Shown piece by piece: positions 5,702-47,310 of a DNA stretch of 64,000 nucleotides. Position numbers and translations under genes: made by a program. The DNA lies in assembly GCA_016281555.1 (NCBI GenBank), contig JAEEIV010000055.1, positions 1 through 64,000 of the forward strand, given 5' to 3'. The stretch comes from Lachnospiraceae bacterium (GTDB taxonomy: Bacteria > Bacillota > Clostridia > Lachnospirales > Lachnospiraceae). The stretch's first letter is position 1; every line of letters starts with the position of its first letter. Below the pieces are notes generated by a model. That model made no database searches, was not told the DNA's origin, and was given only the letters and a program-made list of their open reading frames with translations.

Positions 5702-7090
5702 TCATTCCACGACGTAGTCAAAGTCCACCGGAATAAAGACCTGTCCGTTCGGCGTGCGCGCCTCGATCGTGACACGGTACGTCCCGGGCTCCAACGCGCC
5801 CGTCCGTTTCACGGGCGAAGCGAATCCCTTCAGGCTGAAATGATACGCGGTGCCGTCGGCGATCTCCGCCCGGTTGAACAGGTGGCTGTTCAGGCGCTTC
5901 CTCTCTCCGGTCGTCCGGTTTTCCGCGAACAGCGAAACGGTCGCCAGCGGATAATTGCTCTCGATCCGGATGATCTCCGTGCCGTTTAAGTCGTTCGGGG
6001 AAGAGATCGTCTTCTCGGTGTTCAGCTTGACTTCCGGAAACTCGTACTTTTTCGTGCCCTGAAATTCGGCAACGGTCATCGGGATGTAGGCTTCGTCGAA
6101 GAGGCGTTCAAAAGTGTACTTGTAATCGACGCGGCCCTGCGCGTGGTATTTCTGACCGGTCGTCTCATCGATCTGCTCGAAACCGCCGGGACGCTGATCC
6201 TGGATCATGACGTAGCTCTCGGTGCCGTTGATCGAGCCGTCCGCGTTCCGGACGACGACAGCGTTTTCCGTCGCCATCATCGTATGCCCCATCTTCACGT
6301 GATCCTGCCAGACCACGATGTCCGCGGGCTCTAAGAGTGCGTAACACTCGAACATTTTCTGACTGCCGTAGCGCTTCACGATGTCGTCCGTGAAGTCCTT
6401 GGAGTCCGCCTTCCCGAAGGACGGCGTGGTGAGATCGTAGGTGTAGTCGCCGAGCGGCAGCCAGCCGTTCTTGTACACCATATAGTAGCATTGCAGGACG
6501 CCGCGCATGCTGTTCGCGACGGCAAAGATCGCCCAGCCGGCGGTGCCGGAGCAGCTGCTCCCGATCGCCCGCGTGAATGCGGGGCCGAGCTGCGCATTGT
6601 AATCGGACGTCAGCTCGTCAATGAGGAGACGTCCGGTCCGGAGATTCAGATAATCCAAAAACGCGTATACGCTGGTGTTCGGACCGGTGTAGGGAATGCC
6701 GGCATAACGTTCGTACTGTCTGAAAGGCGTGGAAGAAATCGAGGTCGTGACCTCGAAGTCCTCGTTCGAGTACCATTGCACGGTGAGCGCCTTCCGCATG
6801 AGATCGACCGCCGCCGCGCGCATTTCCGCGATCGTCGGCTCGTGATCGAAGATGTACTGCGGATAGTCCATGATCGGGGAATCGACGGCGAAAATGTCGA
6901 TCTCCTCGGTTTCGGGCACGGTGCTTTCCGCGACCGGTTCAGTCACGGGTTCCGTTTCCTTTTCACCTGACGGAGTTTCCTCCGCAGGCGCTTTCGTGTC
7001 CGAGGTTCCCGCGCCGCAGGCTGACGCAAAGATCATCATGACGGCGACAAGAATCAGGAGCCAACGGTTTTTCTTTTCTTTTCTCATCAT
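5702..7090 (-). CDS. Lipoprotein with papain-like Cys/His motifs (paralogue 1)
   Basis: 462 aa. Signal peptide with lipobox ASAC|G near residue 25, then a Thr/Glu/Pro linker (about 30-70). The folded part starts at AVDSPIMDYPQYIFDHEPT. A conserved SCSGTAGWAIF (about residue 180) followed later by VWQDHVKMGHTMMA (about 255-270) resembles the Cys and His of NlpC/P60, CHAP or other papain-like enzymes, including a Cys at the start of a helix and a His in a beta strand; this is inference. The last 100 residues look like an Ig-like beta domain (SNYPLATVSLF, PGTYRVTIEA). The adjacent gene is a clear paralogue lacking the signal. Start supported by AAAGGAAAG. No known family is recognised. Confidence 0.65.
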   Translation of the reverse strand: MMRKEKKNRWLLILVAVMMIFASACGAGTSDTKAPAEETPSGEKETEPVTEPVAESTVPETEEIDIFAVDSPIMDYPQYIFDHEPTIAEMRAAAVDLMRKALTVQWYSNEDFEVTTSISSTPFRQYERYAGIPYTGPNTSVYAFLDYLNLRTGRLLIDELTSDYNAQLGPAFTRAIGSSCSGTAGWAIFAVANSMRGVLQCYYMVYKNGWLPLGDYTYDLTTPSFGKADSKDFTDDIVKRYGSQKMFECYALLEPADIVVWQDHVKMGHTMMATENAVVVRNADGSINGTESYVMIQDQRPGGFEQIDETTGQKYHAQGRVDYKYTFERLFDEAYIPMTVAEFQGTKKYEFPEVKLNTEKTISSPNDLNGTEIIRIESNYPLATVSLFAENRTTGERKRLNSHLFNRAEIADGTAYHFSLKGFASPVKRTGALEPGTYRVTIEARTPNGQVFIPVDFDYVVE

Positions 7091-7150
7091 TTTTCTGCTT
7101 TCCTTTTATGTTTTCCCGGATCTCTCACCCGGGTCCTATTCTCTTCAGTC

Positions 7151-8326
7151 TTACCCTTCTGCTGCCGTGACTCTTTCCCCGTTAGGCAATGTCACTACGA
7201 GCCGGAACCGCTTTCCTCTGCTTCCTTCGTCCTTCCCGAACCCGGACGGGATGAACCCGGCGAGCGGAAAGTCAAAAGCAAGCCCGTCCCGGACGTCGTT
7301 TCTGGTAAACGCGTACTCGGCGGAGGTTTTTTCCCTTCCTGACGCCGTCTTTTCAAAAAGCGACACGAGCGCCATCGGGTAATTCGAGCGAAGACGCGAT
7401 TTTCGGAGGTTTTCCGGGGTGAAAGGCACTTCCGCGGAGAGTTTCACCCATGGCTTCTCAAACGGCTTTAACCCCTGAAATTCGGCCGTTGTCGCGGGAA
7501 TGTATCCCTCGTCGTATAGCATTTTGAAGGAATACTTCGCATTGACGCGGCCCATGTTCCGGTACATGGCGCCCGTCCGCTCATCGACGGTCTGAAATCC
7601 GCCGGGCCGCTGATCCTGAACGAACACGTAGCTCTTTTCGTCATCCAGAAAGCCGTCCTCTTTCCTGTAATTCAAGACCGCCGGTCCGATCGCCATCATC
7701 GTGTGTCCGAGTTTCTTCCGGTCCTGCCAGACGACGATGTCGCCCGCTTCCAGAAGCCTGTACGATTCGTACATGCGTTCCCGGCCGTTCAATGCGCAGA
7801 TCTCATCGGTCGATAAAGGCGAGTCGTGCCCGAACTCGTCGATCGAAGTGTCGTATTCATAAGGGCCGAGCTTCAGCCAGCCGTTCTTCGGCACCATGTA
7901 ATAGCACTGAAAGCACCCGCGGACGCTGTTGCAGACGGACGCGACCGCCCAGCCGACGGCGCCGGAACAGCTTAAACCCGCGACCTTGTTGAGGGCCGTC
8001 GAAGCGTCCGGATAACCGAGTTTTTTCAGTTCTTCGGTTTTCAGCCGTCCGGTCTTTTCGTCAATGAACTTAAGAAATCCGAAGAGGCTCGTGTTCGGCC
8101 CGGTGTAAGGAACACCCGCGTATTTGACGAAGGGATTGAACGTGCGCTTGGAAACCGACGTCGTCAGTGTGATCGGCTCCTCGGTGAACCATTGCACGGA
8201 CAGCGTCTTATGCATGGCGAGGACCGCCATCTCACGCATTTCCTGGACCGTCGGTTCGTGATCGAACGTGAACTTCGGCCACGACCCGATCGGACTGTCC
8301 ACGGAATCGATTCGAAGATATTGCAT
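7151..8326 (-). CDS. Signal-less paralogue of the Cys/His lipoprotein (paralogue 2)
   Basis: 391 aa from the ATG at 8326, preferred over the ORF-track start (8347) because GGAAGGAG lies just upstream of it. The protein starts directly at the folded region (IDSVDSPIGSW, FDHEPTVQEMR), aligning with residue about 70 of paralogue 1. It keeps the Cys motif (LSCSGAVGWAV), the GWLKLGPYEYD segment, the His motif (VVWQDRKKLGHTMMA), and the C-terminal SNYPMALVSLF beta domain. With no signal peptide or transmembrane segment it is predicted cytoplasmic, unless exported by a non-classical route. Roles such as peptide or wall-fragment processing inside versus outside the cell are speculation. Confidence 0.65.
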   Translation of the reverse strand: MQYLRIDSVDSPIGSWPKFTFDHEPTVQEMREMAVLAMHKTLSVQWFTEEPITLTTSVSKRTFNPFVKYAGVPYTGPNTSLFGFLKFIDEKTGRLKTEELKKLGYPDASTALNKVAGLSCSGAVGWAVASVCNSVRGCFQCYYMVPKNGWLKLGPYEYDTSIDEFGHDSPLSTDEICALNGRERMYESYRLLEAGDIVVWQDRKKLGHTMMAIGPAVLNYRKEDGFLDDEKSYVFVQDQRPGGFQTVDERTGAMYRNMGRVNAKYSFKMLYDEGYIPATTAEFQGLKPFEKPWVKLSAEVPFTPENLRKSRLRSNYPMALVSLFEKTASGREKTSAEYAFTRNDVRDGLAFDFPLAGFIPSGFGKDEGSRGKRFRLVVTLPNGERVTAAEG

Positions 8327-8358
8327 GAAGGGTCTGCTCCTTCCCATGTGTTTTCTGC

Positions 8359-8446: not shown

Positions 8447-11400
8447 TCATTGAACTTTATACTTGTAGCTCGTCGTATCCGTCGTGTCGTCTTCATTCGT
8501 GAAGGTGCCCGACGTCACGCTCCGGCCGCTTCCTATGAAGCTCGTCGGGTCATTGACGAAGTAGCCGCCCGCGATCGTCAGCGTGCCGGTGTTCTTCGTC
8601 AGCGTGCCGCCGAAGTGACCGCCCTGGAGCTGGACCGTGCCGGTGTACGCGTTGACGTTTCCGGCGACCCGTCCGCCGCTCACGGTCACGACCGCCGTAT
8701 CCTTGACGGACTGCAGGTTCTCGGCGATGGTGCCGCCCGTCATCGTGATGACCGGCGCGCTGCCGTCGTTCGTCGAGACGGAATTGTTCGACGTCGTCGT
8801 GCCGTTGTAGACGCCTCTCGTGGTGATGAGCGCGGTGCCGCCGATGTTCAGCGTGCCGCCGACGCGGATGTTGTAGCCATTAGACTTCGCCCAGCCCTTC
8901 GAGACCGTGCCGCCCTCGATCGTGAACGTGCCGCCCTGGTAGACGACCACGTTTCCGCCGCCGTTATTCACGGAAACGCCTTCGGTCACCGTGCCGCCGG
9001 TCATCGTGACCTTCGCGGTCGTATCCTTCACGATGCAGATATTTCCGCCCATGCCGTATGCCTGGCCGCCCTTGATGAGGACGTTGTCCCGGATCGTCGT
9101 CTGGGAACTGCCGCGGAGATAGAAGTTTCCGCCGTTCCGGCTGCCGGTGCCTTCGAGCGCCCGTCCGTCGAGGACCTGCACTTCATCCTTCAGGATGAGC
9201 TTCCGGCTCGTGCCCGCCGCGCTGATGTTGCCGCCGCCGGTCGTCGCGGAACCGTTCAGGACTTTCGTCGTGCCGCCGAGCGTCGTGGTCGCGTTGCCGG
9301 TCATGTACAGGTTTCCGCCTTCCGGAGCGGAACCGTCCCGGATGACCGTATCGTAAGCCGTCAGATTGCCGGCGAGATACATCGCGCCGCCGCTCACGGT
9401 CGCCTTGCCTGCGATCACTTCGCAGTTGTAAAGGTTCAGTGCGTCGGTGTTCTTGTTCATGTACACCGCGGAACCATATTTGCAGGTGACCTTCGACGCG
9501 TCGAGGAGCGTGTTGTAAACCGTGACCGCGCTGCCGCCGTCGATCGAGAAGAGGCCGCCGCCGTTCGCGAGATCCGCCGTCATGACGTTCTCATACTTGC
9601 CTTCCGACTGGCAGTTCGTCATCGTGATCGAGCTCGCGTTCTTCACGAAGACCGGACGGTTGCAGTTCGCCGTCACAGTATGCCCGTTCAGGCAGATGTT
9701 CACGCCCGTCACGGCGTCGTAATTCAGCGTGCCGGTGATCGAGACGTCGGTCGCTAAATACCAGTTTCCGGCAGACGTCGGAAGCCCGTACGCGTACGAC
9801 CACTTCTGCCAGGTGAGGTCCGCGTGGCTGTGTCCGTTCGAGGTGATCGCGCCGCTGCCGCAGATGCAATGCGTGTGCGCGGGCTCAGGCGTGGAAGTCC
9901 CGACCGTCGCTTCCGCGAACATCCGGCCGACCTTCAGTTCATCGCCGTAGTTCCAGTGCGATCCGTCCGCTCCGAGGACCACCGCATTGCCGCCCTCGTC
10001 GTATCCGTTCATTTGGAACTGGCTCGTCGGGATGACTGTCGCGTCGGAAACGATGCCCGGCAGCGAGTTCTGCATGGCAATGAACGCCCGGCAGACCGCG
10101 ATCCGTTCCGGAGTCGCGTTGCCGAAAGTCTCGGAGATCTCGCCGATGACGACCGGCAGTTTCGAATAATCCTGCCCGGTCACCGCCGAAACCTTCTGAC
10201 GGACGCCGGCAATGAAAACAGGAAATACCGACTTGTACTGCGTCGTGTACTCTCTGTCCGATTCGCCCTGCATCCAGTCGAAGGTCTTGAACGTGATGTT
10301 CTCGGCCTTGTAGCCCATCGTCAGAAGTTCGTTGTAGACGGTCTCGATCGAATTTAAAAGACCACGGTACAGAAAACCGGTGTTCCGGTTTTCGCCCTCC
10401 GCGACCGACTGGGCCGTCTCGAGCTCGGTCGGATACCAGGTGCCCTTCTGGTTGTACATGTCGAGCGAGCTGCCGGTTGCCTCCGGGGACAGCGTACTGT
10501 CGTCCTTCTTGTACCGGACAAGGCTCGTGCCGCCCGCCGCGTACTTTAAGATCAACGCCTGCTTGTCGTCCCCTTCATACAGAGGATTCAAGACCTGAGC
10601 CATGCCGAGTTCCGGACCGATCGCGGTTCCGCTCGAACCAAGGCCCTCCTTCACCGGCTGATAATCCGGATGATAGTCGCCCTGCGAGCCGTCGACGTAA
10701 TTCCGGAGCGTGTAATACAGCACGTTTTCATAGGAATTGCCGTCCCGCTCGCCGTCCTTCGCGCTCGCGAAGGTGGAGCTTCCGTTCGCGTTCGACTGTC
10801 CGGACAGGATGTAAATATCCAGTTTGACACTGCTGTTGTCTTTGGTGAGTTTATGCGCTTTCTTCTCGGAATCCCAGACGACGTTGTACTTCTCGTCATC
10901 CGATGAGAAGTTCGCGCTGTAATCCGTTTCGGAAGCCGCGAAGGTATCCGCAGCGCTGACCGAAACGCCGATCTTCGCGCCGGTTTCGAGCGCGCCGCCG
11001 AGTTTGATCGCGCTGCCGGCCGCCGTCAGGTTCGACCCGGTATTGCCGTCAATGACCGCGTTTCCGGAGATCGTGATGTCGCCGGTCTTGATGTAGACGC
11101 CGCCCTCGTTGCCGGTGATCGTGCCGCCGTTCATCACGAACGCGCCTTCCGCCGCATGATAGAACACCGCGACGCCGCCGCCCGCAGAAGAGCCTTCCGC
11201 TTTACCGCCGGTGATCGTGCCGCCGTTCATCACGAACTTCGAGCCGGTATCCCAGACGCCGACGTTGCCTGCCGGCTGTGAGCCGAAGCTCTGGCCGCTC
11301 GAGATCGTGCCGTCGTTCATCGTCGTGAGACCGTTCGTGCAGATGTTGCCGCCGATGCCGCCGCTCGAGCCGCTCTGCGTCGCCTTGCCGCCCGTTAAGG

Positions 11401-14400
11401 TCGAGCCGTTGATCGTCAACGACGCGTTGGCCGTCAGATACACGTTTCCGCCGGACCGGGCAGAGCCGTTTTCAAACGTCGTGCCGGAGAATTCCGTCTC
11501 ATAGCGGTAGAGATAGACGTTTCCGCCGTAAGTCGTGGCCGTGCCGTCCTTCACCGTGCCGCCGTAGAAATGAGACTCTGACGCAACGTAGATGTTTCCG
11601 CCGGTGACGTCCGAATGACCGCCCTCGATCGTGCCGCCGTACATGTTGATGACGCCCGTGCCGGAAAGATGGATCGAACCGCCGCCCAGGGTGGCCGTGC
11701 CGCCCTTCATCGTGCCGCCGTACACGTTGACCGTATCATTCTTATCCGTGTAGATGACGCTGCCGTAACTCGTCGTGCAGGCCGAAGCGTCCAGCGTTCC
11801 TGCGTACAGGTTAAAGGTGCTCTCAGACAGGGAGACGATGCATCCAGCCACGCCGGAGCCGGAGAACGTGCCTGTGGTCCGGACCGTGCCCTTGCCGCTG
11901 CAGTCCGTGATCGTTAATGTGGAGCCCGCCTTCGCGTAAAGGGTCTTCGTCACCGTGGAACTCACGGTATAGCCGTTCAGGCAGATCGTCACGTCAAGGC
12001 CGGTGAAAGACTGCGATTTCGTGAGCTTCACGTCCGAAGTCAGGTAATATGCCTTTCCGTTCGCATCATCGCCGGTCGGCAATGAATCCGCCGAAGTCCA
12101 CGGGATCCATTCGGGATTCGAGTGCGCATGGCTGCCTGCCGTCAGCGCGCCGTCGCCGCAGACGCAGTGCTCGTGCTTCGTGACGTTCACGGTGACCGTC
12201 GCCGACGCAGAGCCGAGTTCCGGCTTCATCGTGATGACCGCCGTACCGACGCCGACCGCCTTCACGGTGCCGTTTTCATCTACGGTCGCGACTGAAGTCT
12301 TGTCGGAAGTGAACTGCAGTTTCTGATAAGAAGCCTCCGTCGGAGTCAGCGTATATTCAATGGTTTCCGACGCGCCGACCGAAAGATCGATCGCCGTCTT
12401 CAAAGGCGTGATGCCGGTCACCGCCACGGGTTCGCCCGCGACCGTGACGTTCAGGGTCGTCGTCGCCGCGCCGTCCTTCGTCTTCACGGTGACGGTCGCC
12501 GTGCCCTCCTTCGTTCCTGCTTTCAGAACACCGTTCTCATCGACGGAAACGATCGAAGGATCGCTGCTCTCATAAACGAGCGCAGTCGTCGCAGCATCCT
12601 GAGGAACGACCGTGAATGCCGGTTTGTTCTCCTGTTCTTTCCGGAGGGAGATGTCGGTGGAAGCCGTCGTGATCGCGGTCGCCTTGCCGGTTGCAAGGAC
12701 CAATGCGGTGCCGTCGCCGATGCCGACGATATAGGCCGGATCCGTGCTCTTGAAGTACTTCTCTGCGCCTTCCTCGTAATTCGTCGTGAACGCGCCCGCC
12801 TGTGAAGACGCGACCGGGATGCTGCCGCCGGTAAGCCCGTCAAGCGTTGCCTTGCCGCCGTTGAAGTAGAAGCCGGTGACGCCGTCAGCAAGTCCTTCGA
12901 ACGTGATCTTGCCTTTCAGGATCAACGTGCCTGCCGAGACGCCGACCGCTTCGTTCTTGCTGCCCTTGCCGCCCTTCACCGTCACGTTGTCCAGAATGAC
13001 CGTGGAACCGGTGTTGACGCTGAGCGCGCCGCCGAACTTTCCGGCCTCGCCGCCGATGAGGGTCAGGTTGTGCAGTTCCAGTTTATGTCCGCTCGAGGTG
13101 AAGAAACCGGATGCGTTCGCCGGGGTCTTCACGTTCGACGCGTCGTACGTGCCGCCGTAGAAGGCCATGTCCGCGTTTCTCGTGAACGCGATGAGACCGG
13201 CGATGTCGCCTTCCTTTTCCTGATACTTGCCGGCCACGACCTTGCTGCCCTTCTGTTCGCCGATCACGGTCAGCTTCGAATTCTCGCCGTAGCCGTTGAA
13301 GACACGCGCCGTATCGGAGCCCGTCACCGTATAGCCGTTCAGGCAGAGAACGACGTTCGCGTCCTTTGCGATCGAGACCTGAGAAGTCAGCGTGACATTG
13401 CCGCAGAGATAATAATGACCGGTCCCGGTCGGAAGCGAAGCCGCCTTCGTCCACGGGGTCCACTCCACGTTCTTGCCGCAATCGTAGCAGACGTGCTTGT
13501 CCTTGTGCGCGACCACCGGATAGGACCGGGCGACGACGTAGACGATCACCGCCTTCTTGTTCCGGTCGGTCAGTACGTGCACGCGGTCGCCGACGCGGAT
13601 CTTCGTCTCTTCGCCGGAATAATGTCCTTCCTTGCCGTCATCGTAGAATCCGCTGACGTTGTACACCTTGCAGCCGGAGGCCTTCGTCTCCTCGCGGACC
13701 TTCATGTAATCCGAAGCCTTCGAATCCGATAGTTTCTGTGTCGTAAACTTGTTTCCGCTGATGGAAAGAACGTCCGCCCAGCTCGAGGTCGAGCCGCCGG
13801 TGTATCCTTCGACGGAAGCGTAATGAATGTACTTGGTAATGGTCTTTCCGTCCGAAGCGAGCTGCAAGCCCATCGCCCTCGCCGCGAAAGCGTCCATCTG
13901 GTCCGCGATGGACTTGTCTTTGGTCTGCAGCGTGACCTGCTTGCCGTCGACCGCCATCAGGAACTCGTAATAACCTTCCGCGTTCGGTTTCCGGGTCGTC
14001 TCCTTCTTCGTGGTGTCATACTTCCGTTCCACGTTCCAGTAGATCTTGCTCTGGTAATACCGGTTGACCACATAGATGAAGCTCGCGTCGCCTTCCGCGT
14101 CCACGAGGCAATGGATCTGATCCCCGACCCGGAGCGTCGTCGGTTCACCGACGAAACTGTCGTACCGGCTGCTGACGTTGTAGATGACGGCGCCGTCCGC
14201 GACCTTTAACGTCACGGTCGTGCCCGCATCGGTGCCTGATCCGTACTTCTTTGCCGTGAATTCCTTTCCGGAGGCATCCGTGAATTTTTCAATGTTGTAC
14301 CAGCTCGCAGCGCTTCCGAAGTATCCGCGCACCTTGTTGCCGGCAGTCGTATGAACCGCGGTGATGACGTCGCCTTCCAGCGTTAAGCCCATGTGCTTCG

Positions 14401-15784
14401 CCGCGATCGAGTCGATCTTGTCCGCGATCTCCTTGTCCTTCGCCTTTAAGGTGACCTGCTTGCCGTCGACGGCCATCACGTAGGTGTACATGCCGTTCGC
14501 ATCCGGCGTCCGTTTCGTGGACTTCGCAGTCGAATCGTACTGTCTCGAAACGTTCCAGTAAACGCGGGATTCGATCCTTCTCGAAACGAGGAAGATCACC
14601 TGGGCGATGCCGTCCGCGTCCAGGATGCAGTGCACCGTATCCCCGATCTCCACGGTCGCATACTCTCCGCCGTGGTCATCGAACGGTCCGCCGACGTTGA
14701 AGACCCGGCAGTTCTCGCCCATCGTGATGGTCGTCACGTTGCCGTGATCGTTTCCGGAACCGAATTTCTTCGCCGTGAAGACCGTCTTTTCATCATTCTC
14801 AAAGCCCGTGACGCCGTACCAGCTCGCGCCGGAGCGTCCGCTCAAAGCGTCCTGACAGCGGGTGACGTGAACGACGTACCCCTCCTTGTCCATTCTGGCC
14901 GCGAAGCACTTGAACGCGTAGGAATCGATGAGTTTCGCAAGTTCGAAGATCTTCGTCTTCAGAACGGTCTCCTCGCCGTTATGATAAACGGTGAAGACGT
15001 ATTCGCTGTCCTCGTTCGGAAGACGCTTCGTATTCTGGATGTCCGAGGCCCATTGCCGGTCGACGTTCCAGTAGAAGCGGTCAAGGACCGGGACTCTGGC
15101 CGGGAAGACCACGACCTGGAGCTGGTTCTCAGGATCGTACCGAAGAACGCCCAGGTGATCGCCGATCTTGAATTCCACTTCGGGGGCGGGATCGATCTTA
15201 TTCATCGTATCGTAGACCGGAATGCCGCCCGTGACCGGGATCGTCACCGCGTAACCCGCCATGTTCTCATCGATGTTCGCGCGGATGACGCCCTGCTCCT
15301 TGTCGTATTTCTGCAGGTAACCGGATTCGAGCAGCAGCGTGTACCCGCAGTCCTCGATCTTCTTCGCCGCGGTGATCATGTTCTCCTCGTCATAGAGAAT
15401 GCAGGAAAACTCGCGGGAGTCGATCACGTTGACAATGGGATACTTGTCCGTAAGGAGTTCCTTCTGCACGCCTTCGATCGAAACGACGATGTGATAGAGA
15501 CCGTCGTCTTCCTTCTTTCTCGATGAAAGACCGCCCTCGGTCATGCCGGAGTAGTACTCGAAGTCGAGGTTGTACGCCACCGGGATCTTCTCTTCCTCGT
15601 CGGCGGGTTCGGTCTCACCGGTGCTCTCGTCCGGTGTTTCCGATGTCTCGGCAGGCTCAGTCTCCTTCGGTCCGAACCAGTTCTTTGCGTTCAGTCCCAC
15701 GATGAGCCCGCCCGCCAACAGAACGGCGAGGATCGGGATCAGGATGAACAGCAGTTTTTTCTTTGATTTCCTGTTTTCTTCCAT
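8447..15784 (-). CDS. Giant membrane-anchored surface protein: beta-helix regions, Big_2 domains and an embedded SASA/SGNH esterase-like domain
   Basis: 2445 aa. Residues 10-32 are one transmembrane segment after a Lys-rich start (no lipobox, no clear cleavage site), giving a type II anchor; an acidic Thr/Pro/Glu linker follows. About 233-760: three tandem ~175-residue modules each opening YWNV. Cys-rich motifs at about 761 (HVCYDCG), 1205 (HEHCVCGDG) and 1973 (HTHCICGSG) each precede a Gly/Thr/Asn-rich right-handed beta-helix (pectin-lyase-like repeats such as NMYGGTI, GGNVYL). About 1045-1200: two Big_2 Ig-like domains. About 1655-1960: an SGNH/SASA-type domain with YILSGQSNANG, WMQGESD and LGADGSHW supplying Ser, and Asp-x-x-His. 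No LPxTG or SLH motif at the C-terminus (ends SYKYKVQ). Likely binds or deacetylates a glycan at the cell surface; substrate unknown. Start has GAAAGGA. Confidence 0.85.
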   Translation of the reverse strand: MEENRKSKKKLLFILIPILAVLLAGGLIVGLNAKNWFGPKETEPAETSETPDESTGETEPADEEEKIPVAYNLDFEYYSGMTEGGLSSRKKEDDGLYHIVVSIEGVQKELLTDKYPIVNVIDSREFSCILYDEENMITAAKKIEDCGYTLLLESGYLQKYDKEQGVIRANIDENMAGYAVTIPVTGGIPVYDTMNKIDPAPEVEFKIGDHLGVLRYDPENQLQVVVFPARVPVLDRFYWNVDRQWASDIQNTKRLPNEDSEYVFTVYHNGEETVLKTKIFELAKLIDSYAFKCFAARMDKEGYVVHVTRCQDALSGRSGASWYGVTGFENDEKTVFTAKKFGSGNDHGNVTTITMGENCRVFNVGGPFDDHGGEYATVEIGDTVHCILDADGIAQVIFLVSRRIESRVYWNVSRQYDSTAKSTKRTPDANGMYTYVMAVDGKQVTLKAKDKEIADKIDSIAAKHMGLTLEGDVITAVHTTAGNKVRGYFGSAASWYNIEKFTDASGKEFTAKKYGSGTDAGTTVTLKVADGAVIYNVSSRYDSFVGEPTTLRVGDQIHCLVDAEGDASFIYVVNRYYQSKIYWNVERKYDTTKKETTRKPNAEGYYEFLMAVDGKQVTLQTKDKSIADQMDAFAARAMGLQLASDGKTITKYIHYASVEGYTGGSTSSWADVLSISGNKFTTQKLSDSKASDYMKVREETKASGCKVYNVSGFYDDGKEGHYSGEETKIRVGDRVHVLTDRNKKAVIVYVVARSYPVVAHKDKHVCYDCGKNVEWTPWTKAASLPTGTGHYYLCGNVTLTSQVSIAKDANVVLCLNGYTVTGSDTARVFNGYGENSKLTVIGEQKGSKVVAGKYQEKEGDIAGLIAFTRNADMAFYGGTYDASNVKTPANASGFFTSSGHKLELHNLTLIGGEAGKFGGALSVNTGSTVILDNVTVKGGKGSKNEAVGVSAGTLILKGKITFEGLADGVTGFYFNGGKATLDGLTGGSIPVASSQAGAFTTNYEEGAEKYFKSTDPAYIVGIGDGTALVLATGKATAITTASTDISLRKEQENKPAFTVVPQDAATTALVYESSDPSIVSVDENGVLKAGTKEGTATVTVKTKDGAATTTLNVTVAGEPVAVTGITPLKTAIDLSVGASETIEYTLTPTEASYQKLQFTSDKTSVATVDENGTVKAVGVGTAVITMKPELGSASATVTVNVTKHEHCVCGDGALTAGSHAHSNPEWIPWTSADSLPTGDDANGKAYYLTSDVKLTKSQSFTGLDVTICLNGYTVSSTVTKTLYAKAGSTLTITDCSGKGTVRTTGTFSGSGVAGCIVSLSESTFNLYAGTLDASACTTSYGSVIYTDKNDTVNVYGGTMKGGTATLGGGSIHLSGTGVINMYGGTIEGGHSDVTGGNIYVASESHFYGGTVKDGTATTYGGNVYLYRYETEFSGTTFENGSARSGGNVYLTANASLTINGSTLTGGKATQSGSSGGIGGNICTNGLTTMNDGTISSGQSFGSQPAGNVGVWDTGSKFVMNGGTITGGKAEGSSAGGGVAVFYHAAEGAFVMNGGTITGNEGGVYIKTGDITISGNAVIDGNTGSNLTAAGSAIKLGGALETGAKIGVSVSAADTFAASETDYSANFSSDDEKYNVVWDSEKKAHKLTKDNSSVKLDIYILSGQSNANGSSTFASAKDGERDGNSYENVLYYTLRNYVDGSQGDYHPDYQPVKEGLGSSGTAIGPELGMAQVLNPLYEGDDKQALILKYAAGGTSLVRYKKDDSTLSPEATGSSLDMYNQKGTWYPTELETAQSVAEGENRNTGFLYRGLLNSIETVYNELLTMGYKAENITFKTFDWMQGESDREYTTQYKSVFPVFIAGVRQKVSAVTGQDYSKLPVVIGEISETFGNATPERIAVCRAFIAMQNSLPGIVSDATVIPTSQFQMNGYDEGGNAVVLGADGSHWNYGDELKVGRMFAEATVGTSTPEPAHTHCICGSGAITSNGHSHADLTWQKWSYAYGLPTSAGNWYLATDVSITGTLNYDAVTGVNICLNGHTVTANCNRPVFVKNASSITMTNCQSEGKYENVMTADLANGGGLFSIDGGSAVTVYNTLLDASKVTCKYGSAVYMNKNTDALNLYNCEVIAGKATVSGGAMYLAGNLTAYDTVIRDGSAPEGGNLYMTGNATTTLGGTTKVLNGSATTGGGNISAAGTSRKLILKDEVQVLDGRALEGTGSRNGGNFYLRGSSQTTIRDNVLIKGGQAYGMGGNICIVKDTTAKVTMTGGTVTEGVSVNNGGGNVVVYQGGTFTIEGGTVSKGWAKSNGYNIRVGGTLNIGGTALITTRGVYNGTTTSNNSVSTNDGSAPVITMTGGTIAENLQSVKDTAVVTVSGGRVAGNVNAYTGTVQLQGGHFGGTLTKNTGTLTIAGGYFVNDPTSFIGSGRSVTSGTFTNEDDTTDTTSYKYKVQ
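13510..15090 (-). repeat. Three tandem ~175-residue YWNV protein modules (coding repeat)
   Basis: Within the giant gene, three in-frame units begin RFYWNVDRQW, SRVYWNVSRQY and SKIYWNVERKY at roughly residues 233, 408 and 580. Each continues with a VDGKQVTL-type strand, a K-x-IADKID helix, an ASWY segment, VYNV and an R-V-G-D-x-(I/V)-H-C/V block. The first is more divergent than the second and third, which share VMAVDGKQVTL almost exactly. Confidence 0.8.
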
Positions 15785-15915: not shown

Positions 15916-15943
15916 ATTATATCAAAGAGTAGTGGAATTGCAA
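15916..15943 (-). promoter_or_regulatory. Predicted promoter of the giant gene
   Basis: TTGCAA (15938-15943), 16-bp spacer, TATAAT (15916-15921) on the minus strand. It gives a leader of about 125 nt before the start at 15784, which holds an inverted repeat but no ORF. Confidence 0.55.
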
Positions 15944-15986
15944 AGGAAAAAAGTCGGAAAATGGAAAAAACAGTGAAAAAACGGCG

Positions 15987-37550: not shown

Positions 37551-39932
37551 TTACTTCGGCTGCAGCCCCAGATAGTTTGCAATGCCGATCGCGTCGAGCA
37601 CGCCGAAGTGCTGCTGCTTTTCGATCGTGTCGATATACGTCACGTCGTGGTCCATGAAGCAATGCTCCACAATGACGCCCGGAATTCCGCGGTTCGCCGC
37701 ATGGCGGTTGATCGCGTAATAATCGAGCGGATTACCGAATTCATCGAAATACTGATTCGACGTCGTGATGACCGCGCCGCGATTCTGAAGTCCGGTCGTC
37801 GTAAGCTGCGCCAGGATACTGTTCGCAAGATTCCGGCAGCGTGCTGTCACGCTCGCCTGCGCCGAGATGAAAACGAGCGCCCCGCTCGCGCTGTGATTGT
37901 TGCTCGCGTTATAGTGCAGGCTCACCAGAATGTCCGCGTTGTGATCCTGCGCAAACTGCGCCCGCGCTTCGAGGTCGCGCGAAAGATTCACGGAACTCAG
38001 TTCCTGGTCGTTGCTTCGCGTGAGGTAGACCTGCACGCCCGTGTAATGCGCCTCCAGGTACGCCTTGCAGGCCAATGCGGTGACGAGATTCATGTCCGCT
38101 TCGTTCCGGCCGTAATAACTGGCGCCGGCATAGCGTCTGCAATGGCCCGGATCGATCACCACGATCTTGTCCGGATCCGGAATGTTCACCGTCACGGTGC
38201 AGGTCGCCGACTTTCCGCCGGCCGACGCCGAGATCACCGCCGTTCCGCGATCAATGATCTTCACGAGCCCGTTTCCGTCCACCGTCGCGACGTTCACGTT
38301 GTCCGAAGAGAACGAGACCGAGCCCTCCGATGCATTTTCCGGCGTCACCGTCGCCTTTAGGGTGAAGGTTTCTCCGCGCGCCGTTGCGGTGTGTTCCGTC
38401 TCGGAAAGCGTCACGCTCTCCACTTCGACGTAGGGCAGGACCGTCACTTCCACCGACGCGGTTTTTCCGTTCACCGTCGCGGTAATGACGGAGGTGCCTT
38501 CTTCAACGGCAGTCACGAGGCCGGTCCCGTCGACCGAAACGGTTTCCGGCTGTGCCGAGACCCATGAGACCGTTTTCGGATCCGTCGTGTCCGCCGGCTC
38601 GTATACGACGGAAAGCTTCGCCGTAAAGCCCTTGATGACGGACAGCGACTCCTGATTCAGCCGGATGGACTGCAACGGAGACAAGACCGTCACGGTGCAG
38701 ACCGCACCGAGGAGCCCGTGGTTTGCGGTGATGTGCGCCGTTCCGGGCGCGACCGCAGTGACGTTTCCCGCGCCGTCGACTTTTGCGACGGAGGCATTGT
38801 CGGTGGAAAACGTGATGGTCCGCTCCTCCGTGGTATTCCCCGGAACGACGGCCGCCTGCAGCTGGCCGGAAGCACCCTTGTTCAAGGTCATTGCCGTCTG
38901 GCTGAGCGCCACGCCGGTGACCGGGATCACGACCGAGATCGTTGCTTCCGCCCGGAGTTCCCCGCAGACGGCGGTGATGATGGCATTGCCGGGTCCGGCC
39001 GCATGGATCGTTCCGTTTCCGTTCACCGTGACGACCGAGGTGTTCGAACTCGTCCAGGTCGTCGTCGTATCGCTCGTCGTGTCGGCCGGATTGTAGATGA
39101 GCGGTAATTGCACCGTATCGCCGATCCGAACCGTCATCGACTTGAAATTAAACGCAATGCTGCTCAGCGTGCTCTTCACGGTGATCCGGCATTTGGCTTC
39201 CAATGTGCCGACCTTCGCCGTGATTTCCGCCGTGCCGCGTCCCGCGGCCAGGATCCTGCCGGTCTTTTCGACCTTCGCCACCTTCTCGTCGGACGACGAA
39301 AACGTGATGCATCCCGGCTTTAAGAACGGGCCGAGTTCATATTTCAGCACAGGATCGACCTGACTGTATTTTTCCAATTCATATGCTTCCGGCTCGAAAC
39401 GGAGGAAGAGTTCGGGTTCCGTGACATGCACGACCCGCTGCTCTTCCGTTTTCCGATTCCGGACCGTGACGGTTGCGGTGCCCCCGCTGATCGCACGGAG
39501 CCCGCCGAACTCGTCCACGGTCAGGACCGATTCGTCGGAAGAGGAATAACGGACCTTCCCGGACAGGACTTCTCCGATACGGATCCTCGGGGAAAGATAT
39601 GCTTCTTCGCCGGTGAACAGTTCCAGCGGCTCTTGCTCACCGGGGTCCGGAGGCTCTGCGCTTTCGCTGCTTTCCGGCACCGTTTCGGTTTCGCTTTCCG
39701 GTTCCGTCTCGCTTTCTGTCTCAGGGTCCGTTACGCTTTCTGTCGGTCCTTCCGTCAGCGTTTCTTCAGTGACGGCTTCCGATGCGGACCCATCTTTCAG
39801 AACCGGCACGTCTTTCAGCACGAGCAGTAAGGCAGCCAGTCCTGCGACGGCGACCATGATCCCTATGCCCCAGAAGAGAGGCTTTCTATTCGGTTTTTCC
39901 TGATCGTTCTGCATACGCTGCCGTTTCAGCAC
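37551..39932 (-). CDS. Membrane-anchored N-acetylmuramoyl-L-alanine amidase with six Big_2 domains
   Basis: 793 aa from GTG at 39932 (GGAG upstream); ATG at 39914 is an alternative. A short cytoplasmic end, one transmembrane helix (about 19-40, FWGIGIMVAVAGLAALLLVL), a Ser/Thr/Glu linker, six Ig-like Big_2 units (about 95-590, each with a SSDESVLTVD-like strand and GTA-I/V-T), then a C-terminal Amidase_3 domain: VVIDPGHCRRY, a Glu in GRNEADMN, SLHYNAS and IVEHCFM carrying the zinc ligands and Glu. It cleaves the MurNAc-L-Ala bond. The long Ig stalk would project the enzyme from the membrane to the wall. Confidence 0.92.
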   Translation of the reverse strand: MLKRQRMQNDQEKPNRKPLFWGIGIMVAVAGLAALLLVLKDVPVLKDGSASEAVTEETLTEGPTESVTDPETESETEPESETETVPESSESAEPPDPGEQEPLELFTGEEAYLSPRIRIGEVLSGKVRYSSSDESVLTVDEFGGLRAISGGTATVTVRNRKTEEQRVVHVTEPELFLRFEPEAYELEKYSQVDPVLKYELGPFLKPGCITFSSSDEKVAKVEKTGRILAAGRGTAEITAKVGTLEAKCRITVKSTLSSIAFNFKSMTVRIGDTVQLPLIYNPADTTSDTTTTWTSSNTSVVTVNGNGTIHAAGPGNAIITAVCGELRAEATISVVIPVTGVALSQTAMTLNKGASGQLQAAVVPGNTTEERTITFSTDNASVAKVDGAGNVTAVAPGTAHITANHGLLGAVCTVTVLSPLQSIRLNQESLSVIKGFTAKLSVVYEPADTTDPKTVSWVSAQPETVSVDGTGLVTAVEEGTSVITATVNGKTASVEVTVLPYVEVESVTLSETEHTATARGETFTLKATVTPENASEGSVSFSSDNVNVATVDGNGLVKIIDRGTAVISASAGGKSATCTVTVNIPDPDKIVVIDPGHCRRYAGASYYGRNEADMNLVTALACKAYLEAHYTGVQVYLTRSNDQELSSVNLSRDLEARAQFAQDHNADILVSLHYNASNNHSASGALVFISAQASVTARCRNLANSILAQLTTTGLQNRGAVITTSNQYFDEFGNPLDYYAINRHAANRGIPGVIVEHCFMDHDVTYIDTIEKQQHFGVLDAIGIANYLGLQPK

Positions 39933-45579: not shown

Positions 45580-47310
45580 TTACTTCGCCTCGTTCCACGG
45601 GACCGGCTCCGCAAACGTTCCCGTATGATAGCCGTTGATGAGACGGATCATCAGAAGGTTCAGATACTCGTGCACCGCGTCCGGAAGCTGCGGATCGAAA
45701 TGCGAGTAGCCGATGCCGGAATCGTCCGTCATGAAGATGAATGTGCCGCCGGTCAGGATCGCTTCGGACCGGGCCGTGTACTCCGTCAGTTCGTCCGCAC
45801 CGCTCGCCATGATCGGGCAGATCCGAACGCCCTGCTCCGCCGCAGACGCGATCGCGCTCTTCAGCCGGCTCTGATGCTCAGAATTGCCGTGTGCAGGCGC
45901 GTCAAAGACGTGGAACAGGAGTTTCGTCGAGCCCGTGGTCCAGCCCTTGGAAACGGCCATTTCAAGCGCCTCGTCGAGTGCCTCCGGCGTATCGCCGCCG
46001 CCGGCCGCCTCCTGCTTCGTCAATACCGTGTAATGACTCTCATAATCCGCCGGATCCGTCACGTCCTTGAACTCGACGTAGCGGAACTTCTCTTCGTCGC
46101 CGTCGTCCCGATAAAAGAGCAATGCCAGTTTCACCCGGGAATCCGGATTCGCCCGTACCACCTGCTTGATCACGTCGCCGAGTTCTTCCCTGAGGTAACG
46201 GAGTTCGTCTCCCATCGAACCGGTCACGTCCACGACGTACATGAGTTCAATGACGTCCGCGGTCTTTTCCATATCATCAAGCGTTTCAAACGTCACGGCC
46301 ACTTCCTTCTCGCCGTTGACCGGAACCGTATGCACTTCCGAAGACTCGGGGGATGTGACGGTCAATGTGCCCGCGTTTCCGCCGAAGACGTACGCGATGC
46401 CGTTCCGGTTCGTCCGGGCCGAGTACCGTTCGCCGGATGCCGTCGTGAGCGTGACAAGCGCGTCGAATAACGGCATCCCGGCAAACGTGACCGTGACTTC
46501 GATCCGGTTCAGCGAATCCAGTCCCCACGATGCGAAGGTCTGTTCGCCGGACTCTCCGTAATACGTGCCGGAAAACTTGCCGGAAGTTTCATTCTGCTCG
46601 TTCTTTAAGAACAGTTCTTTCCACTTGAGGTAATGCGCATTGTCGTCCCACGCCGCAGCCGTCAGCTGACCCGGTTCAGGAACAGGGGGCTCGGTCTCGG
46701 GCTCCGTTTCAGGCTCCGTTTCCGTATCGGTTTCGGGCTCGGTTTCTGTTTCGGTTTCAGGCTCGGTTTCCGTATCGGTTTCAGGCTCGGTTTTCGTTTC
46801 GTCGATCAGCTCGGTTCCGGGCTCCGCATTCGTATCGGGATCTTCCCTCGAATCTCCCGGCGCCTCGACTTCGCCCGGCGTGGTTCCGCCGTAGGTGCCC
46901 TTCCCGCCCGAAGTATCGAAATAACCGGTGTCTCCCTTTCCGTCTTTCGAGTAGTATTTACCGATCTCGGCCGCGGAGAACCCGGTTTTCTCTTCGCCGG
47001 TGAACACGAAGTCACCTTCTGCGAAGGTCGCTCCCCCGGGCGCCGCCGTTCCCGAATTCTCGATTGCTGCCGCCTCCGTCGTTACCGCAGCATCCACTCC
47101 GCTCGCGGCATTGTTCTTCGGTCTGACGATCGAGTTCACGCCGATCGGGATCGCCACTGCCGCGACGACCGCAGCCGCCGCGATTCCGACCCACTTCACC
47201 CAGGAACGCTTCTTCTTTCCGATCAATGCGGGGACGTTGTCCTCCGCGTCACGAATGAGGTCGTCGCCGATCTCGTTCAAGGCATTGTTTAATTCATCCG
47301 TCTTTTTCAT
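45580..47310 (-). CDS. Membrane-anchored VWA-domain protein, putative anti-sigma partner
   Basis: 576 aa. A ~30-residue inside segment (ELNNALNEIGDDLIRDAEDN), a transmembrane helix (about 38-58, WVGIAAAAVVAAVAIPIGV), an acidic Glu/Thr/Pro repeat linker (about 155-215), a beta-rich region, then a VWA domain from about 355: MYVVDVTGSMGDE (MIDAS Asp-x-Thr-Gly-Ser), and GGGDTPEALDEAL. It would sit outside and bind a ligand through a divalent ion. It overlaps the sigma gene by four bases (ATGA), so it is the sigma partner. An anti-sigma role comes from context only; no classical zinc anti-sigma domain is visible. Confidence 0.75.
   Translation of the reverse strand: MKKTDELNNALNEIGDDLIRDAEDNVPALIGKKKRSWVKWVGIAAAAVVAAVAIPIGVNSIVRPKNNAASGVDAAVTTEAAAIENSGTAAPGGATFAEGDFVFTGEEKTGFSAAEIGKYYSKDGKGDTGYFDTSGGKGTYGGTTPGEVEAPGDSREDPDTNAEPGTELIDETKTEPETDTETEPETETETEPETDTETEPETEPETEPPVPEPGQLTAAAWDDNAHYLKWKELFLKNEQNETSGKFSGTYYGESGEQTFASWGLDSLNRIEVTVTFAGMPLFDALVTLTTASGERYSARTNRNGIAYVFGGNAGTLTVTSPESSEVHTVPVNGEKEVAVTFETLDDMEKTADVIELMYVVDVTGSMGDELRYLREELGDVIKQVVRANPDSRVKLALLFYRDDGDEEKFRYVEFKDVTDPADYESHYTVLTKQEAAGGGDTPEALDEALEMAVSKGWTTGSTKLLFHVFDAPAHGNSEHQSRLKSAIASAAEQGVRICPIMASGADELTEYTARSEAILTGGTFIFMTDDSGIGYSHFDPQLPDAVHEYLNLLMIRLINGYHTGTFAEPVPWNEAK

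Follow-up and report, generated by a model that had tools for sequence, protein, structure and literature searches.

Esterases of the SASA family are defined by a Gln beside the catalytic Ser in Block I, by (H)QGE in Block III and by DxxH in Block V, and most SASA proteins carry no appended domains (PMC9487903). EstA of Bacteroides is a sialate O-acetylesterase that acts on glycan-linked sialic acids together with sialidases (PMC5512079). A literature search found no paper on a SASA domain combined with a beta-helix. The window analysed here, a stretch of 64,000 nucleotides from a Lachnospiraceae draft genome, encodes a SASA domain within a single chain of 2445 residues. In the best reading, a gut-type bacterium makes a giant membrane-tethered surface protein that holds an intact sugar-deacetylating domain amid repeat-rich stalks.

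The giant open reading frame and its SASA domain

The giant gene has the following features, with positions given in the window and residues in the protein.

15916-15944, minus strand: promoter-like site with an extended -10 (TTTGCA-17-TATAAT) upstream of the giant ORF, a consensus match only, in a region where the count of such sites is near chance
8447-15784, minus strand: composite giant ORF encoding 2445 aa without a break, with a ribosome site before its ATG
15689-15757, minus strand: N-terminal hydrophobic helix after a Lys-rich stub, residues 10-32, putative membrane anchor
15074-15589, minus strand: N-terminal repeat 1, residues 66-237, degenerate, with AYNL at its start
14561-15073, minus strand: N-terminal repeat 2, residues 238-408, YWNV
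14042-14560, minus strand: N-terminal repeat 3, residues 409-581, YWNV, 35% identical to repeat 2
13505-14041, minus strand: N-terminal repeat 4, residues 582-760, YWNV, 44% identical to repeat 3
12605-13492, minus strand: repeat module 1, residues 765-1060 (WTPW, CLNG, glycine-rich), probable beta-helix
12185-12604, minus strand: two Big_2/Big-like immunoglobulin-like domains, residues 1061-1200 (Pfam)
10835-12184, minus strand: repeat module 2, residues 1201-1650 (HEHCVCG, W..W, CLNG, GGT/GGN repeats), probable beta-helix
9911-10822, minus strand: SASA (CE6-like SGNH) domain, residues 1655-1958 (Pfam, model, fold matches)
10790-10801, minus strand: Block I GQSN, residues 1662-1665, with predicted catalytic Ser1664 and oxyanion Gln1663
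10262-10270, minus strand: Block III QGE, residues 1839-1841, within WMQGE 1837-1841
9956-9967, minus strand: Block V DGSH (DGSHW), residues 1940-1943, with predicted catalytic Asp1940 and His1943
8450-9889, minus strand: repeat module 3, residues 1966-2445 (HTHCICG, W..W, CLNG, GGT/GGN repeats), probable beta-helix

Immediately 5' of the ATG is a ribosome site of the AAAGGA type, and the frame runs open without an internal stop, which confirms the view of the initial annotation that an esterase-like domain and repeat regions are joined in one ORF. From the N- to the C-terminus the order is anchor, four repeats, module 1, two Ig-like domains, module 2, SASA and module 3. The Lys-rich stub followed by a single hydrophobic helix agrees with the membrane anchor that had been proposed; three paralogs carry a lipobox-like site at the position of this helix. 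Pfam identified SASA, Big_2 and Big-like domains and nothing further with E < 0.05, and an NCBIfam search of the protein gave no match. The two Big_2 domains named earlier were recovered as two stretches scoring 33.8 bits against a cut-off of 22.8, and the matches of the protein to PHROG reflect only these Ig-like domains. Big_2 stretches also occur, five in number, in a 793-aa protein of the window (37551-39932, minus strand) together with Amidase_3 (N-acetylmuramoyl-L-alanine amidase), and a 576-aa protein (45580-47310, minus strand) combines a von Willebrand factor A domain with a low-complexity stretch.

The match to SASA (PF03629; E 1.1e-11) reaches 45.3 bits against a curated cut-off of 24.8. 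The family-defining motifs GQSN, QGE and DxxH are all kept, with the classic His of HQGE replaced by Met. Comparison of the five SASA sequences of this genome with eight outside relatives revealed that none of the 13 departs from Gln, Ser, Asp and His or from the QG of Block III; QGE is changed to QGG in a giant paralog on contig C85 (WMQGG) and to QGT in the relative L089. An AlphaFold model based on a nine-sequence alignment (pLDDT 80.4, pTM 0.85) predicts an SGNH fold, and its best PDB fold matches were NanS (3pt5, E 1.8e-10), At4g34215 (2apj), the CE6 enzyme of C. acetobutylicum (1zmb, CAC0625) and SIAE, with the peptidoglycan O-acetyltransferase PatB and a peptidoglycan O-acetylesterase at lower ranks. 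By sequence, the single domain yielded only chance matches in the PDB, and a profile yielded weak matches to SIAE and NanS. The SASA/SGNH-like domain of the initial annotation, with its GQSN, WMQGESD and DGSHW motifs, is thus supported by the Pfam score, the motifs and the predicted fold.

SASA copies lie within long adhesin-like chains, and the loss of the Block III Glu in the C85 giant implies that some copies may do without activity; the domain could then be a catalytically silent, lectin-like binder of a ligand. This we hold to be improbable, given the Ser, Gln, Asp and His common to all 13 sequences and an excess of synonymous over amino-acid change in the domain (dN/dS ~0.25 for the C80/C89 pair, the remaining pairs being near saturation). 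The 2445-residue protein is instead probably a membrane-tethered extracellular carbohydrate (glycan) O-acetylesterase carried on a repeat stalk. The earlier proposal of a tethered surface esterase is supported in this respect, with intact catalytic motifs and a predicted fold in a membrane-tethered chain between repeat modules.

Repeat modules and a family of giant proteins

Each of the four N-terminal repeats comprises ~172 aa. The three YWNV modules described previously are present; the total is four, the first starting with AYNL. All three repeat modules share the pattern W..W...LP..YYL..V...CLNG and glycine-rich GGT/GGN repeats, modules 2 and 3 in addition an HxHCxCG start. Since this pattern recurs in three copies along with the glycine-rich repeats, the modules are probably beta-helices, as judged from their sequence. 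The three beta-helix regions of the initial annotation correspond to these three glycine-rich modules, which had no counterpart in Pfam (E<1) or among PDB sequences.

The genome contains five SASA domains, all within or beside a family of giant proteins. At four loci, on the contigs C70 (the window), C85, C80 and C89, the order is module-SASA-module, and their SASA domains are 40-70% identical; the C70 and C85 giants are membrane-anchored and the C80 and C89 giants are signal-peptide forms. From the N-terminus through module 1, Big_2 and module 2 to SASA, the identity between the C70 and C85 proteins is 47-52% (~49% along most of the chain); in the last module it falls to 37%. The evenness of this identity over most of the chain indicates that the composite chain predates the duplication, which excludes misassembly. 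The genome is a fragmented draft with several family members at contig ends, a situation in which an ORF might be a chimera of unrelated genes; divergent paralogs with the same order at three further loci, and frames open without stops, effectively refute this explanation, and we reject it with near certainty. A GQSN in a paralog on C3 (L014) proved to be a chance match within repeats and not a SASA domain. In a tree the five SASA copies group together (support 93/92), adjoining the outside relatives L087-L089.

A search of the genome with the whole protein matched many giant ORFs. The family comprises about 29 of them, amounting to 48,986 aa (stop to stop) or ~6% of the 2.26-Mb draft genome. 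Twelve of the 29 form an anchored class, eight with a transmembrane helix, three with a lipobox-like site (on C76, on C10 and in a second C85 gene) and one, on C81, without a placeable start. Sixteen have a signal peptide, soon followed by a Cys-rich start of the HxxCxC type, and one is a fragment. Four members are cut at contig ends (L010 on C48, L015 on C3, L023 on C89, L029 on C46); repeats that break the assembly would explain their position, and the family may be larger than listed. One member (L028, 4852-10251, plus strand, on C50) contains a Transglut_core domain near the C-terminus, possibly another enzyme cargo.

Searches of 60 relatives, including 14 congeners, gave no match to the N-terminal repeat region, and a profile of this region gave only short weak matches in 391 other genomes of the order, at most two candidates being scored per genome. 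The CxCG module has 52 matches in this genome, compared with one each in two congeners and three in one other relative. The giant family is apparently restricted to this species, and its size suggests a heavy investment of one species in surface display. The most notable point of the analysis is this apparently species-restricted family together with an undescribed partner domain (see below), both of which are absent from the initial annotation. Contamination of the bin was considered and judged unlikely: two window genes clearly correspond to congener genes, at 74% and 61% identity (in a comparison that covered part of the congener genome and found gene order not conserved there), and the GC content is even across contigs. 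A phage or plasmid origin was likewise rejected, as there was no phage match and one weak match to a Bacteroides plasmid.

Downstream genes with invariant Cys, Asp and His

Two tandem genes follow on the strand of the giant ORF (5702-8347, minus strand).

7151-8347, minus strand: 398-aa protein, no signal peptide evident, with an undescribed domain containing invariant Cys, Asp and His
5702-7090, minus strand: 462-aa lipoprotein-like protein with the same undescribed domain, 47% identical to its 398-aa neighbour

Six copies of the domain all keep Cys180, Asp257, His269 and Asp298. On C85 a giant gene is followed by a gene in which SASA is fused to the Cys-Asp-His domain and then by a lipoprotein gene, and on C3 a giant gene has one copy of the domain at each side. 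A further copy is on C76, and a match on C78 covers the N-terminal 75 residues only. The C76 locus (L113, 300-2645, minus strand) holds a 781-aa ORF that joins a lipobox-like site, repeats that are glycine-rich by eye and the Cys-Asp-His domain. The domain matched no entry by Pfam, profile or PDB searches, NlpC/P60 and CHAP included; a weak match to a PHROG endolysin family (E 0.048) falls on the Cys/Asp/His stretch, and the predicted model is poor (pLDDT 50). The fusion on C85 suggests a functional link between SASA and the downstream domain, the best that was found, and fusion to a known type of esterase gives a tangible clue to an undescribed domain.

The order of the invariant Cys, Asp and His presumably resembles that of papain-like hydrolases of the NlpC/P60 or CHAP type. 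The downstream proteins may then be wall hydrolases, and the esterase may act on the cell's own wall or surface polymer in self-remodelling, an idea with which the endolysin match, the C85 fusion and the peptidoglycan enzymes among the lower-ranked fold matches are consistent. The downstream domain, however, lacks support from Pfam or the PDB and from its model, and SASA is closest to NanS/CE6 and not to wall enzymes, so that we regard self-remodelling as possible and rather unlikely.

For the favoured reading, a tethered glycan O-acetylesterase, the following mechanism is proposed. The N-terminal helix would anchor the protein in the membrane, and the four N-terminal repeats and module 1 with the Big_2 domains would cross the wall. 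SASA, set between modules 2 and 3, would strip O-acetyl groups off a polysaccharide by Ser-His-Asp catalysis, its oxyanion site formed with Gln and QGE as in other SASA/CE6 enzymes. Binding or positioning of the polymer is the probable role of the repeat modules, and the two downstream proteins probably share this target. We infer surface position, activity, substrate and the role of the modules; an extracellular location is supported by the anchored paralogs, which have a transmembrane helix or a lipobox-like site, and by the signal peptides of others. In a broader and quite tentative proposal, which we consider doubtful, the ~29 giants form a modular surface system specific to this lineage, built of the undescribed N-terminal repeat and the likewise undescribed CxCG/CLNG module, some with enzyme cargo, in which SASA and the neighbouring new Cys-Asp-His hydrolases act as a pair that deacetylates and then cuts a polymer.

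Substrate and comparison with described esterases

The initial annotation had suggested a host-glycan target and processive action. Neither is supported: no match to the nanA family model (NanA lyase) was found in the draft genome, which is 93.6% complete, nor was a match to GH10, the xylanase family searched, and no polysaccharide-degrading genes were recognised among the neighbours checked. Sialic acid and xylan are thus both unsupported as substrates. A BNR_2 domain occurs in one clear 369-aa protein without a signal peptide and in one weak match on C8. The BNR_2 protein adjoins a ceramidase-like protein (L113, 6256-8752, minus strand, on C76), neither with a visible signal peptide. EstA of Bacteroides, a gut-bacterial O-acetylesterase, is of the kind proposed for the window protein; unlike EstA, which has sialidase partners, the window protein is found in a genome in which neither a clear secreted sialidase nor NanA was detected.

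The window type of SASA had no match in 97 relatives and, among 391 further genomes of the order, weak partial matches in only six. An alignment-based scan of contigs retrieved eight relatives (L087-L094) in MAGs of Clostridia, several of which came from the gut of deer, goat or sheep; a scan with the single protein gave none. They are 27-40% identical to the window SASA (tblastn) and have the same motifs, yet unlike the window giant most carry SASA close to the N-terminus of a signal-peptide or lipoprotein form. The flanking modules of the giant family occur in none of the eight, of which L087-L089 run off contig ends. Within this genome the architecture occurs repeatedly; outside it, the searches gave no example. 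The family in which this arrangement sits accounts for ~6% of a small genome.

The SASA model also matches the structure of the tailspike of cyanophage Pan3 (9vyh), in which an SGNH-like domain is placed on a long fibre. The tailspike is a phage protein and its likeness to the SASA domain is structural; a search of phage records with the SASA domain gave no match. With the SASA/CE6 esterases (PF03629; NanS, CAC0625, At4g34215, SIAE) the window domain has GQSN, QGE, DxxH and the predicted SGNH fold in common. It differs from them in the Met, instead of His, that precedes QGE and in its position in a 2445-aa tethered chain amid repeat modules. The enzyme domain itself is ordinary and of a known kind; its setting is unusual.
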